Positions 4,028 through 47,063 of a stretch of 64,000 nucleotides of DNA are shown one piece after another (positions within the stretch are counted from its first letter, which is position 1; each line of letters begins with the position of its first letter). The notes beneath the pieces were generated by a model. The model did not search any database, was not told where the DNA came from, and was given only the letters and a program-made list of their open reading frames with translations. Origin of the DNA: Anaerobacillus isosaccharinicus (GTDB lineage: Bacteria; Bacillota; Bacilli; Bacillales; Anaerobacillaceae). The position numbers and the translations under genes were made by a program. The DNA is taken from positions 248,001 to 312,000 of the forward strand of contig NZ_CP063356.1 of the NCBI RefSeq assembly GCF_001866075.3. Direction: 5' to 3'.

Positions 4028-6172
4028 TTAATTTGCATTCACAAAAGAAAATTTTACCCTTGCTTGATTAGAAGGATCCCCTTCAAGATTCGTTTGAGGA
4101 TTAAATGGTTTTACAACATACTCATTTAATGAAAATAGATTGACGTCTTTAACAACATACTCCCCGACCCCATCTACTTGACCAACCTTCATCAATCTAC
4201 CACTCTTACTAACTTCATAAATATGATAGCGAAGGCGCTCGTCACTTGATGATGTCCAATTTAATCTAACATTTAAACCAAGACCTTTAAAGCTAAGATC
4301 TGCTTGTAGGTCGGTGATGTCAACAAGGCGTACAGGTGGTTCAAGATCAAGAACATCGTCTGGCTTGATAAATGCTAACGAACTTCCATCACTGTTTATA
4401 ATTTCCTTAAATAATTTAGTCGGATATGAGCTGCCTACTGTTAAATAATGATCAGGATCTGTTCGGTCAAAGCCCATCCATAAAGCTCCTACTAAATTAG
4501 GTGAATATCCTACAAACCACGCATCCCTTGCAGCACCCTTTACTTCAGTGTAAGAAGTTGTGCCCGTCTTCCCGGCTAACGCAACTTCGACATGACCATG
4601 TCGACCTGTTCCATCAGCTACAACCGCCTCTAACATTCTTGTCATATACCACGCTGTTTGTGATGAAAGAACTTGTTGCTCATTATTTATTCTCTTTGCA
4701 ACTAACTTCCCATTACGATCATAAATTTCATTTATAAAATATGGGTCAACCATTTTACCTTCCTTAGCAAATGGACGGTAAGCTGTCGCAAGTTGCAATG
4801 GCGAAATTCCTTCTTTCATCCCACCTAACGCAAGAGCAAGCCCCTCGTCCTCAACTGATATATTCAACTGGTCTAAATAACTTTTCCCTTTTTCAACGGA
4901 TAGCTCATTTAATAACCAAACTGCTGACGCATTTGAAGAGTCTCTTACTGCATCGTACATCGTTACATTGCCTTCATAGCGATTATTAAAATTTCTTGGT
5001 TCATATCCACCGTAATTAATAAGTTCATCTTTTAACAAGCTATACGGCTGATACATCCCTGTTTCTAAAGCCGGGGTATAAACGACTAGAGGTTTTATTG
5101 CAGAGCCTGGCTGTCTCTTCGTATAAACACGGTTTAATCCTTTTCGAACATAATTCCGTCCGCCTTGGGCAACGACGACACCTCCAGATTCGTTATCTAA
5201 TAACACAAGCGAACCTTCAACTTGTTGCTTTGGTCCACCCTCTGGAAAATATTCGGAGTTTTGAAACAACTGGTACGATTTTTCCTGAAGCTTAAGATCC
5301 ATGGGAACAACTATCGTATAGCCACCTCGTAAAATTTCACTACTAGATAATTGATATAGAGCTTCAGCTTCTTCCAAAACCATATCTATATACGTTAAAA
5401 AAGCCGGGTTTTCAGTGATCCGATTAAAATCAATTTTAATTGTTCGTCCTTGAAGTCTTACCGTCTCTTCAGCTGTTAAATATCCTCTTCGTTCCATGAC
5501 ACTTAACGTAAGGTTTCTTCTTTGTTTACTTAACTCAATATTATTGTACGGAGAATAAGTATTTGAAGCTTTTGGCAAACTTGCTAAAAGCGCTCCTTCA
5601 TCAATTGTTAATTCAGTAACTTCTTTATTAAAATAAAGTTTTGATGCTGCTTGAATTCCATATGCGCCGTGGCCAAAATATATTCGATTTAAATACATTT
5701 CAATTATTTCTTCTTTACTATGTCTTCGCTCTAAATTAATGGCAATTAAAACTTCTTTTGTTTTTCTTAGCCAGGACTTTTCATTAGTTAAGAATGTATT
5801 TTTCACTAACTGCTGTGTGATCGTACTTCCACCCTCTACTTTAGCTCTACTTATAATATCACGATAAAGAGCTCTTCCAATCGCACGAAAATCAATGCCA
5901 CGATGATCATAAAATCTAGCATCCTCAATTGCAATAAACGCATTTTGAACATGAAGAGGAACAGATGTAATTGGTACTATTTCACGGTTTTCAACAAATA
6001 ACTTTGTAATCACTTCACCATTTTGGTCAACTAAAGTCGTATTAGCATCCATGACAAGCTTTTTATTATCAATTGCATAGTTTCCAGCAATGATAATAGT
6101 TATATAAAGAGAGAAGCTTAAGATCATCATAATTGAAAATAATAACGCACCTATTAATAACTTGTTTCGCAT
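4028..6172 (-). CDS. Class A penicillin-binding protein (transglycosylase/transpeptidase, PbpG/PBP2D-like)
   Basis: Bifunctional peptidoglycan synthase that polymerises glycan strands and crosslinks peptides outside the membrane. From ATG 6172 (714 residues): membrane anchor about 10-32; glycosyltransferase domain with EDARFYDH (83-90), GGSTITQQ (114-121) and EMYLNRIYFGHGAYG (158-172); transpeptidase with SAIK (357-360), SSN (412-414) and KTGT (534-537); then a fibronectin-type-III-like C-terminal domain. I chose 6172 because GAGGGGGGA precedes it. The frame stays open 28 codons further upstream only because it runs through a heptamer repeat. The closest known group is the PbpG/PbpF type made around sporulation, but paralogues are hard to separate. 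Confidence 0.93.
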   Translation of the reverse strand: MRNKLLIGALLFSIMMILSFSLYITIIIAGNYAIDNKKLVMDANTTLVDQNGEVITKLFVENREIVPITSVPLHVQNAFIAIEDARFYDHRGIDFRAIGRALYRDIISRAKVEGGSTITQQLVKNTFLTNEKSWLRKTKEVLIAINLERRHSKEEIIEMYLNRIYFGHGAYGIQAASKLYFNKEVTELTIDEGALLASLPKASNTYSPYNNIELSKQRRNLTLSVMERRGYLTAEETVRLQGRTIKIDFNRITENPAFLTYIDMVLEEAEALYQLSSSEILRGGYTIVVPMDLKLQEKSYQLFQNSEYFPEGGPKQQVEGSLVLLDNESGGVVVAQGGRNYVRKGLNRVYTKRQPGSAIKPLVVYTPALETGMYQPYSLLKDELINYGGYEPRNFNNRYEGNVTMYDAVRDSSNASAVWLLNELSVEKGKSYLDQLNISVEDEGLALALGGMKEGISPLQLATAYRPFAKEGKMVDPYFINEIYDRNGKLVAKRINNEQQVLSSQTAWYMTRMLEAVVADGTGRHGHVEVALAGKTGTTSYTEVKGAARDAWFVGYSPNLVGALWMGFDRTDPDHYLTVGSSYPTKLFKEIINSDGSSLAFIKPDDVLDLEPPVRLVDITDLQADLSFKGLGLNVRLNWTSSSDERLRYHIYEVSKSGRLMKVGQVDGVGEYVVKDVNLFSLNEYVVKPFNPQTNLEGDPSNQARVKFSFVNAN

Positions 6173-6187
6173 AAAAGTCCCCCCTCT

Positions 6188-6366
6188 TCCTTGAATGTAG
6201 AATGTAGAATGTAGAATGTAGAATGAGTGTAAGTCGCGCTTCGAAGTTTTTTTCAATTCTACATTTTGAATTCTAAATTTTGAATTGTGAATGTTTTTTT
6301 GGGTGATGCTCCGAAGAGAGGCTCAACTAATTTACAATTCATAATTGATAATTCATAATTAGATTT
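6188..6366. repeat. Heptamer-array intergenic repeat element 1
   Basis: Starts with four to five tandem TAGAATG heptamers (about 6195-6226), then a core with GCTTCGAAG, then inverted-type runs (ATTCTACATTTTGAATTCT) and AATTCATAATTGATAATTCA. Member of a family seen at eight or more intergenic sites in this window. Confidence 0.7.
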
Positions 6367-6477
6367 TATCGTAGTTTCGACAAATACTGTAACTAAACGA
6401 CTTTCTTTTCTATACGAAGCAAGATATCATAATGTTACAAAATTGTTTTCAGTTTGTTAACAATTGTCCATGATAAA

Positions 6478-6600
6478 ATAAAGTGTAAAGTTTAGAGTGT
6501 ATAGTGTAAAGTTATGTTTATAACACATAGAGGTCTTATTGTCTGGCCTTAAAGATCCATAAAGCTCTACATTTTAAACTCTAAACTCTAAACTATAATG
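6478..6600. repeat. Heptamer-array intergenic repeat element 2
   Basis: Left part AAGTGTAAAGTTTAGAGTGT, right part CATTTTAAACTCTAAACTCT, in inverted orientation with an unrelated core of about 60 bases. It lies directly before the ccdA ribosome site and is a G-variant of the TAGAATG family (TTTAGAG, GTGTAAA). Confidence 0.65.
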
Positions 6601-44295: not shown

Positions 44296-44545
44296 TTTAG
44301 AGTTTAAAGTGTAGAGTGTAGAGTCTTTGTGGGGAAGCTCGATGATACAAAACCACACTTTTAATATTGTGATATATTCCATAAAAATATCGTCTACACT
44401 AAAAAAGCTCGAGACTGCCCCACAGTCTTCGAGCTCTTTTACTCATCTCTGAAACACCCTCACAACTTTAAACTCTACATTTTACATTACTTTCTAAACT
44501 CAATCTTCAAATTCTACATTCTACATTTTACATTCTACATTCTAT
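44293..44545. repeat. Heptamer-array intergenic repeat element 7 (composite)
   Basis: Left array GTTTAGAGTTTAAAGTGTAG; right side has two stacked arrays, TTTAAACTCTACATTTTACA and then AATTCTACATTCTACATTTT, running up to the stop of the metal ATPase gene. A strong terminator is in the core. Looks like two elements merged. Confidence 0.7.
44397..44442. terminator. Strong bidirectional terminator
   Basis: AAAAAAGCTCGAGACTG-CCCCA-CAGTCTTCGAGCTCTTTT; stem of about 14 pairs with one bulge. Ends the ATP-grasp operon and the metal ATPase operon. Confidence 0.88.
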
Positions 44546-46634
44546 TCCTTACACGAAAAAGCCTGATCCCGTTTAATGTAACGAGGATCGTTGCACCCAT
44601 ATCTGCGAAAATGGCAAGCCATAATGTAAGCCAGCCTGGAAAAACGAGAAGGATCGCTATAAATTTAATAACGATGGCAAAGGCGATGTTCTGTTTAATT
44701 ATCTGTAAGGTTTTTCGACTTAAGTTAATTGTAAACGGGAGCTTTTCTAGATCATCTGCCATTAAGACAACATCCGCTGTTTCTAAGGCACTATCGCTTC
44801 CAGCTCCTCCCATTGCAATGCCAACATCGGCTAACGCGAGGGCCGGTGCATCATTAACACCATCACCAACCATTGCTGTGAAGCCTTGTTTTTGAAGCAG
44901 TTCCACTTTTTCCACTTTCTCATTTGGCAATAGTTCTGCGAAAAAATGATCTACGCCACTACTTGTCGCAATCGCCTGCCCTACTTTTGGATTATCCCCT
45001 GTTAACATGACAATGTTTCGGACCCCAAGCTTCTTCATTTGCATAATAGCTTTCTTACTTGTTGCTCTTATTGTATCTTGAATAACAATGAGCCCTAATA
45101 CTTGTTCGTTAGTTGCCATGACAATAACAGTGCTACCTTGATTTTGGAGAACACTTATTTTTTCTTGAATTGTTTCATTAATAATTCCTAATTTTTTTAC
45201 AAACTCTGGCTTCACGACAAAGTATTCTTTTCCTTCTACAATTCCTTTTACGCCGTTTCCGATAATTTCCGAAAAATATTCGACATTATGAGTTTTGGTC
45301 TCGATTTGTTGAACGTATTTCACAACAGCCTTGCTAATCGGATGGTTTGACTGTTTTTCAATAGCTGCCGCTATCGCTAACTCTTTGTTTTGTTCTTTTG
45401 TATACCAAGTAACATCAACTACTTTTGGGTTTCCTTCCGTTAGCGTTCCAGTTTTATCAAAAGCAAATTGTTTCACGACGGCTAATTTCTCTAAATAAAT
45501 TCCACCCTTGATCACAACACCTTGTTTTGCGGCATTTCCAATAGCAGAAACAACGGCAACTGGGGTTGAAACGACTAATGCACACGGACATGCTACGACG
45601 AGAAGTGCTAAGCTGTTATAAATCGACTCACTCCAGTTACCTGCTAGGAAAAGCGGTGGTACAATAGCAATGAAAACAGCTAATACTAGTACCACAGGTG
45701 TATAAATTCGTGCAAAGCGATCAACAAACGCTTGTGATGGTGCCTTTTTCCCTTGAGCTTCTTCAACAAGGTTAATGATTTTGGCAATTGTCGTATCTTT
45801 TGCAAGTTTTGTTACTAGTACCTCTAAATAACCTTGCTCATTTAACGTTCCAGCGTATACTTGGTTTCCTATAGTCTTTTCCACTGGGATACTTTCACCA
45901 GTAATAGCAGCTTGATTAATCGTTGATGAACCGCTTTTAACAATGCCGTCCATAGCAATCTTTTCACCAGGTTTCACAACTAAAATATCATCGATTTTAA
46001 TATCAGATACTGCTAATATCTGCTCAACACCTTTTCTTTTGACTGTTGCCTTTTTCGGAGCTAACTCCATGATTGAACGAATTGCGTTTCGCGCTTTATC
46101 AAAAGAGTACGATTCTAGCCATTCAGAGACTGCAAATAAAAAGGCAACTAAAGCTCCTTCACGCCATTCCCCAATTAAAAAAGCCCCCGTAACTGCAATA
46201 CTCATTAATACATTCATATCGAACTGCAGAAGAAAAAGACGTTTATAGCCCTTCTTGAAGATATTAAAGGCACCTAGGAACGTAATCGCTAAGTATAGAG
46301 AAAACAATAGTCCTGCTTGGGCATTAGTAAAAAAATCGAGGAAAAAAGTTAAACTCAGAAGCAGACCAGTAATCATTATGCGATTGTTTCGTTTGTTTTT
46401 CCAAAAAGAGATTTTTTGGATTTCGACTCCTACAGGGATGACGTTAATATTGTCAAAGCTTCCTGCTTTCGTTAACTCTGTCAACGGGACATCTCCCCAA
46501 ACTTTCAACTTTGCTGCCGCGAAATTAACTTCCGCCTTTTCTACATTTGGTAACTCGTTAATGTTCTTCTCAAACTGAGAAGTACACTCAATTCAAGTCA
46601 AACCTTCTAACATATATTCTCGGGGCTGTTCCAC
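44535..46634 (-). CDS. Cd/Zn-type P1B ATPase with in-frame TGA at the first Cys of the CxxC metal site (selenoprotein candidate, or nonsense mutant)
   Basis: Heavy-metal exporting ATPase close to CadA/ZntA, plasma membrane, 699 codons from GTG 46634 (AGGAG 8 bases upstream). N-terminal HMA domain: YMLEGLT, then TGA (46593-46595, codon 14), then IECTSQFEKN; CadA proteins have CxxC here, so TGA replaces the first Cys. The rest is a full P-type ATPase: AITGESIP, CPC motif (349-351), phosphorylated Asp in FAFDKTGTLT (393), MLTGDNPKVG, GDGVNDAPALA. Without TGA read-through the longest frame starts at TTG 46508, with no ribosome site and no complete HMA domain. Partner repressor gene lies directly upstream. 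Confidence 0.8.
46560..46595 (-). promoter_or_regulatory. Candidate bacterial SECIS hairpin after in-frame TGA
   Basis: TGA at 46595-46593. Then stem CTTCTCA (46582-46576), loop GTT (46575-46573), TGAGAAG (46572-46566); the stem extends past one A-A mismatch by five more pairs (46588-46584 with 46564-46560). The loop's first base is G, and it is the 18th base after TGA. This matches the general bacterial SECIS layout (small apical loop starting with G, about 16-37 bases from UGA). Confidence 0.55.
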
Positions 46635-46649
46635 GTTTTTCACTCCTGA

Positions 46650-47000
46650 CTATTTTTTCTCCTTGCTATGGGCAATAGCTTGCTCTAGCAGTACTGTTAC
46701 ATGATGATCATCAATCGTATAAAAAACCATCTTACCTTCTTTACGGGATTTAGCTAGACCATGCTTTTTTAAGTGTCTTAAGTGATGAGAAGCTGCTGCA
46801 GTCGAACTCTCAATAATCGTTGCGACATCACAAACACAAAGCTCACTTTTTGACAAAGCAAAGATTATTTTTAACCGAGTTTCATCGGCTAATGCTTTAA
46901 ATATTTGCGAGACCCCTTCAACTTCATGAAGTTGTTCTCTTACGTCGATTACTTTCTGTTGATCATATTGAAAAACATCACAAACTTCTCTTTCTTTCAT
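46650..47000 (-). CDS. ArsR/SmtB-family metal-sensing repressor (CadC-like)
   Basis: 116 residues. Metal site of the CadC type: CDVF near the N-terminus (Cys 7) and ELCVCDVATII in helix alpha-3, then the recognition helix SSTAAASHHLRHLKKHGLA and wing KEGKMVFYTIDD. CadC binds DNA and releases on Cd, Pb or Zn. GAGGTG ribosome site before ATG 47000. The ATPase gene begins 16 bases downstream, so the two form a cad-type operon. Confidence 0.9.
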   Translation of the reverse strand: MKEREVCDVFQYDQQKVIDVREQLHEVEGVSQIFKALADETRLKIIFALSKSELCVCDVATIIESSTAAASHHLRHLKKHGLAKSRKEGKMVFYTIDDHHVTVLLEQAIAHSKEKK

Positions 47001-47011
47001 AAAAACACCTC

Positions 47012-47063
47012 ATTCAAATTTATGTTTGAATATATCATACTATATTCAAACGTAAATTTGAAT
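47012..47063. promoter_or_regulatory. Two operator palindromes for the CadC-like repressor
   Basis: ATTCAAATTTATGTTTGAAT (47012-47031) and ATTCAAACGTAAATTTGAAT (47044-47063), centres 32 bases apart, directly upstream of the repressor ribosome site. This is the ATTCAAA-n6-TTTGAAT form used by ArsR/SmtB/CadC regulators; autoregulation of the operon is the natural reading. Confidence 0.75.

Follow-up and report, generated by a model that had tools for sequence, protein, structure and literature searches.

Heavy-metal P-type ATPases have appeared among bacterial selenoproteins before. In the accessible text of a survey that covered over 5200 organisms (PMC5029168), the family (TIGR01525 / COG2217 ZntA; example ABB15669.1) is listed as a selenoprotein, with 32 proteins in 25 organisms, and the accessible parts of three further sources list the same ZntA-type selenoprotein (PMC13188914, PMC9312934, PMC2398784). 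For Bacillales, an earlier survey gives 3 selenoprotein families with 3 selenoproteins in the part of it that was accessible (PMC1794560). Most known selenocysteines (Sec) are thought to do redox chemistry, according to the accessible text of PMC9312934. In the open-licence literature, searched in part, we found no paper devoted to a Sec-containing CadA/ZntA ATPase in Bacillales, and no account of its spread in the order or of two SECIS architectures. The Sec pump type is therefore already known; there is less documentation for how far it has spread in the order, for the repeated exchange of Sec and Cys, and for the occurrence of different SECIS elements at one codon.

The gene examined here lies in a stretch of 64,000 nucleotides of the Anaerobacillus isosaccharinicus genome, hereafter the window, and its features are collected in Table 1. 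When TGA is translated as Sec (U), the frame from GTG 46634 reads VEQPREYMLEGLT-U-IECTSQFEKN and remains open to 44535, and the TGA at codon 14 (46595-46593) is the only stop (n = 1) inside it before the final one. The first-pass annotation had described this reading, an in-frame TGA followed by an open P-type ATPase, and both the sequence and its translation bear it out. The nearest relative, in genome G006, has ATG where the window gene has GTG. We consider it close to certain, on the comparative evidence below, that the organism reads the codon-14 UGA as Sec by means of SelB, tRNA-Sec and the adjacent hairpin, which would give a UxxC-type P1B Zn/Cd/Pb efflux ATPase under an ArsR-type regulator.

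Table 1 Features of the predicted selenocysteine-containing ATPase locus (window positions)
Feature	Position	Strand	Remarks
P1B-type Zn/Cd/Pb-transporting ATPase gene (predicted)	44535..46634	−	GTG start; 699 aa with TGA = Sec
Shine-Dalgarno-like AGGAG	46647-46643	−	8 nt before GTG 46634
In-frame TGA, predicted selenocysteine	46593..46595	−	codon 14; first ligand position of UxxC
HMA domain with UxxC site	46473..46616	−	protein residues 7-54
Candidate SECIS hairpin	46560..46588	−	upper 46582-46576 / 46572-46566; loop GTT 46575-46573; lower 46588-46584 / 46564-46560
ArsR/SmtB-family metalloregulator	46650..47000	−	NF033788, 93.8 bits, cut-off 55; PF01022
Two ATTCAAA-N6-TTTGAAT inverted repeats	47012..47063	−	47063-47044 and 47031-47012; by eye
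Terminator-like hairpin 3' of ATPase gene	44412..44428	−	no excess over shuffles

The listed Sec ATPase ABB15669.1 and the window pump belong to the same protein family and share the UxxC motif, a likeness drawn from the description in the accessible text. The best solved relative by sequence is the zinc-transporting ATPase (ZntA-type) of 4umv/4umw, aligned over residues 7-695. Sec 14 of the window pump is matched with the first CxxC cysteine of 4umv, which thus has Cys where the window pump has Sec. The earlier suggestion that the TGA takes the place of the first Cys of CxxC agrees with this alignment, and also with the relatives, in which the codon is TGT or TGC in 59 of 114 rows. The two proteins further share CPC, a Lys and an ADxGAT motif near the end, and CPC together with ADxGAT presumably marks the Zn/Cd/Pb group (P1B-2).

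The Pfam domains of the ATPase are HMA (PF00403), E1-E2_ATPase and Hydrolase (HAD), with PF00403 scoring 32 bits against a cut-off of 24.8 when C was put in for U. Among protein families it fits best in TIGR01525 (heavy metal translocating P-type ATPase; 622.6 bits, cut-off 346.25). Since both the Cd-family P1B model TIGR01512 (535.7 against a cut-off of 313.5) and the copper model TIGR01511 (423.7 against 397) were passed, the metal is not settled by the models; zinc, cadmium or lead would be the presumed substrates. The scores fall below the ZntA equivalog cut-offs (NF033775, 543.5 against 1240 bits; NF008262, 612 against 1005 bits), and the pump is not filed as a ZntA equivalog, although it may still work like ZntA. 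A weak match to NF041115, a UxxU metal-binding (seleno)protein, covers an HMA-like stretch at window residues 9-45 (19.9 bits against a cut-off of 95); this is a 74-position model and not a pump. Eight HMA matches are present in the source genome, and the window's pump is the one of the eight with a TGA. Homologues of the pump occur in 1580 PLSDB plasmid records, all at less than 60% identity.

The hairpin directly after the TGA, CTTCTCA-GTT-TGAGAAG, consists of 7 upper pairs and 5 lower pairs across one A-A mismatch, and the G of its loop is the 18th base after the TGA, just as it was described in the first-pass annotation. The 51 bases from the TGA fold with a minimum free energy (MFE) of −11.8 kcal/mol (z −2.6), and 5 of 200 shuffles were as low. 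As given in the accessible text of PMC13188914, the bacterial SECIS model has a loop of 3-9 nt with a G among its first two positions, an upper stem of 4-16 bp, 16-37 nt from UGA to loop and an MFE of at most −7.5 kcal/mol. The window hairpin, proposed earlier as SECIS-like, lies within all four criteria (loop of 3 nt, GTT; 7-bp stem; 17 nt; −11.8). Both strands of the window hold 2467 TGA triplets, that of the pump included; a SECIS-like geometry with 7 or more stem pairs follows 158 of them, and in 15 of these cases the fold also equals or exceeds the pump's in stability, so that the hairpin by itself is weak and not decisive, and its weight comes from the relatives and the genome.

The machinery for Sec was sought in the whole source genome (5.23 Mb, one contig), and selA (554 bits), selB (357 bits), selC and selD (402 bits) were all present. 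There are 2 tRNA-Sec genes (58.6 bits against a cut-off of 47) with the anticodon TCA. The selD gene itself contains one TGA, at KGG-TGA-GCK, and is a second UGA-bearing gene of the genome. In 14 well-known genomes used as controls, the cut-off was exceeded for tRNA-Sec in 5, selB in 2, selA in 1 and selD in 2; since the tRNA-Sec model passes in 5 of the 14 and SelB in 2, a hit to the tRNA model lacks specificity when taken by itself. Judged by its gene content, the organism is able to decode Sec.

The surroundings of the two tRNA-Sec copies have features of their own. The copies (G000:C1:3587722-3587814 in L001/L022 and 3725088-3725180 in L002/L023) are about 137 kb apart; they have a 100-base identical stretch in common, and a 291-bp alignment that includes the tRNA is 95% identical. 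One copy has a tyrosine recombinase-like ORF, recognized by eye, as its neighbour, and the other has part of a similar ORF next to it, an arrangement that would be expected if tRNA-Sec had served as the integration site of a large element. At L023:2350-4703 is an ORF pair that by eye resembles an IS21-type transposase together with the ATP-binding helper. This pair sits between ORFs 1894-2241 and 5315-6598, which are possibly parts of one ATPase gene.

We examined the codon at this site in relatives from the same order. The order sample comprised 397 genomes, of which 270 had a homologue at E ≤ 1e-190 and 179 had SelB. Rows were taken from among the matches listed in the order search: 49 stop-flagged ones (48 TGA, 1 TAG) were fetched, as were 31 of 32 chosen Cys controls, a subset of the listed Cys rows. 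In the 114 rows read at this codon, the window included, it is TGA in 55, TGT in 40 and TGC in 19; L057, which stands outside this count, reads TGT. The TGA-flagged rows read in the order number 56, and all except that of G372, which has its TGA elsewhere and TGC at the site, have TGA exactly here. SelB-positive genomes account for 54 of the 55 TGA rows versus 23 of the 59 Cys rows, the other 36 Cys rows being SelB-negative. Counted per genome, the ratio of SelB-positive to SelB-negative is 53:1 where a TGA row is present versus 16:31 where there are Cys rows only (Fisher p 4e-13). The 55 TGA rows come from 54 genomes, and at least 53 SelB-positive genomes of the 397 sampled carry the Sec-type pump.

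Within the genus, SelB and tRNA-Sec were found in all 7 genomes. Five of the 6 with a close homologue (G000, G006, G003, G002 and G005) have TGA at the site and G001 has TGT, while G004, which is 62% complete, has no close homologue; in G005 the ATPase gene is broken again further on. The exception in the order is G171, where searches at the thresholds applied found neither SelB nor tRNA-Sec. The TGA gene of this genome (L123, G171:C3:3167-3647) has a type-2 hairpin (see below) and lies on an 8.7-kb contig, and a Cys version is also in the genome; the gene may have been transferred recently or be a contaminant, or the machinery may have been lost not long ago. A sample of the phylum comprised 398 genomes, 65 of them with a homologue at E ≤ 1e-170. 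TGA stands at the site in 9 loci read outside the order (L186-L190, L192-L194 and L200), and L191, also flagged in the phylum search, has TGC; these readings cover the flagged rows other than the TGA-flagged G704, G784, G605 and G527.

The relatives allowed us to examine the conservation of the hairpin. At least 6 of the window's 7 upper pairs are present in 12 of the 55 TGA rows (type 1) and in none of the 59 Cys rows; no more than 3 of the 7 pairs form in the 43 TGA rows that remain, and no more than 4 in any Cys row. Cys relatives with the same hairpin, which would have spoken against the earlier proposal, are thus absent among those read. Indiicoccus explosivorum (L083) has the TGA and the type-1 hairpin. 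In the type-1 set, 6 cells show both-sided changes, which are spread over 3 of the 9 pairs (U-A to C-G, G-C to U-A and A-U to G-C). The covariation score is 0.246 versus 0.126 after shuffling; this score and the number of changed cells were matched by 0 of 500 shuffles, the count of both-sided pairs by 16 and that of further pair types by 147, in shuffles that ignore relatedness. The 93.5% of cells that are paired is an inflated value and not independent evidence, since the type-1 rows were picked by pairing. Cys rows placed on the type-1 structure have 35.2% of cells paired, with no excess. The window and G006 have one both-sided change, which puts Ser and Lys in place of the Ala and Gln of most type-1 rows.

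The remaining 43 TGA rows have a different hairpin (type 2), with an outer stem directly after the UGA and a five-base loop starting GA. Here 86.9% of cells are paired. The 18 both-sided cells and the covariation score were matched by 0 of 500 shuffles, both-sided pairs by 8 and further pair types by 136, again in shuffles that ignore relatedness. Cys rows have 56.2% of cells paired on the type-2 structure, with no excess. The mean MFE is −12.1 for TGA rows (53 distinct) versus −7.2 for Cys rows (47 distinct; p 2e-12). Eight of the 9 TGA rows from outside the order (L187-L190, L192-L194 and L200, not L186) fit neither hairpin type. The proposal of the first-pass annotation that the UGA stands for Sec, giving a UxxC site, is thus supported by the association with SelB, by the relatives and by the conservation of the hairpins, and Sec insertion is strongly supported from sequence.

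Two further observations concern the hairpins. The same eight out-of-order rows by eye have GC-rich arms that are set further apart. In L027 (G001), the TGT version, the downstream bases still look like the type-2 hairpin, with ACCTGGATGG kept, which possibly reflects a recent Sec-to-Cys change within the window's genus.

The history of the site was examined with a quick tree of 134 rows, from which the HMA part was removed, in which 4 identical rows were merged, and which leaves out L184, L199, L263 and L029 (the last with many inner stops). This tree needs 18 Sec/Cys changes, a figure that is approximate and comes from an unrooted tree, and since the root was not inferred, gains and losses of Sec are not told apart. 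An arrangement with type 1 and type 2 on the two sides of one split was not rejected (AU p 0.77). The tree that contains this split is 37.7 log units better than the quick tree, so that the latter is not optimal and its counts, including the 4 changes needed for the type-1 hairpin, are approximate. In the quick tree, the window and G006 group together as a pair, set apart by a long branch. An arrangement with the Sec rows as a single clade was rejected (AU p 6.6e-7). The Sec rows are not one clade, yet they have the same codon in the rows read.

The gene for the ArsR/SmtB-type regulator lies upstream, separated from the start of the ATPase gene by 15 nt, and the two genes probably share one operon. 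The inverted repeats upstream overlap promoter-like hexamers and are a candidate operator of the ArsR protein; such hexamers are no more numerous than expected from shuffling. The regulator and the upstream repeats together form a layout that would suit a metal-induced operon. We propose that SelB and tRNA-Sec decode the UGA at codon 14 under the direction of the hairpin directly 3' of it, and that the selenolate and thiolate of UxxC form the metal-binding pair of the N-terminal HMA domain. At this pair the pump would bind soft divalent metals, with Sec acting as a metal ligand rather than as a redox residue, and when metal is present the ArsR-type repressor would probably release the two-gene operon.

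An alternative that accepts Sec at the UGA is that its role is mainly regulatory, with the pump made only when selenium is available and the hairpin kept for the sake of this control instead of the residue's chemistry. The position of codon 14 would suit such a role because readthrough that fails so early aborts the protein cheaply, and a Cys paralogue exists in the source genome (L031, G000:C1:1739963-1742059) and in 5 of the 53 other TGA-row genomes. Against it, the TGA lies exactly at the metal-ligand Cys in the 55 rows read, the repeated exchange of Sec and Cys suits a functional equivalent of Cys, and no link between the pump and selenium supply was observed. We regard a mainly regulatory role as unlikely, although a selenium-dependent gate is possible as an added role beside the chemistry of Sec.

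The first-pass annotation had also raised the alternative of a nonsense mutation from TGT or TGC to TGA that removes the HMA domain. On this reading a truncated pump would be made from a later start, or no product at all. TGA is indeed one step from both Cys codons, the standard reading (table 11) shortens the gene to an open frame called from TTG 46508, and P1B ATPases of the genus that match the window protein only from residue 70 or later may be without an HMA domain. However, the same TGA stands in 54 other genes, nearly all in SelB-positive genomes, so that an error of sequencing, or a nonsense mutation peculiar to this gene, is very improbable, and the frame is open and conserved on either side of the TGA. 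No Shine-Dalgarno-like stretch was seen by eye before TTG 46508, whereas the GTG has one. In addition, the window and G006 (72% protein identity) show 0 synonymous changes in the 12 codons after the TGA, whereas the remaining 58 codons among the first 70 show 17 (4 in the 14 before and 13 in the 44 after; Fisher p 0.03, with small numbers). Taken with the association with SelB, this argues against the alternative, to which we would assign a very small probability. Readthrough by other means, for instance through a suppressor tRNA or reassignment of TGA, is hardly credible: no observation was found to favour it. It is contradicted since 4 of the 31 window ORFs of at least 250 aa end in TGA, so that TGA also serves as a stop, and since the association with SelB and the hairpin is specific.

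Returning to the decoding of UGA as Sec, selenocysteine would occupy a position at which one expects a metal ligand, and the protein concerned is a pump for detoxification. Annotation with table 11 shortens such genes, which are common in the order: of the 397 genomes sampled, 53 or more that are SelB-positive have one. We tentatively suggest, as a view that we hold with somewhat less than even confidence, that a fixed Sec codon at a metal-ligand position, as opposed to a redox-catalytic one, is widespread in this Firmicutes order and depends on two or perhaps three SECIS elements, if not more, that are unrelated to each other, with many exchanges between Sec and Cys and with the recoding signal exchanged for another or arisen anew while the UGA stayed the same. 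If this is true, the pump would offer a natural series for the turnover of SECIS elements and for what a selenolate gains in the capture of soft metals, the presumed benefit of Sec over Cys. Sec and Cys versions stand side by side in several genomes, including that of the source organism, which makes metal binding by Sec versus Cys and the turnover of SECIS elements directly testable.
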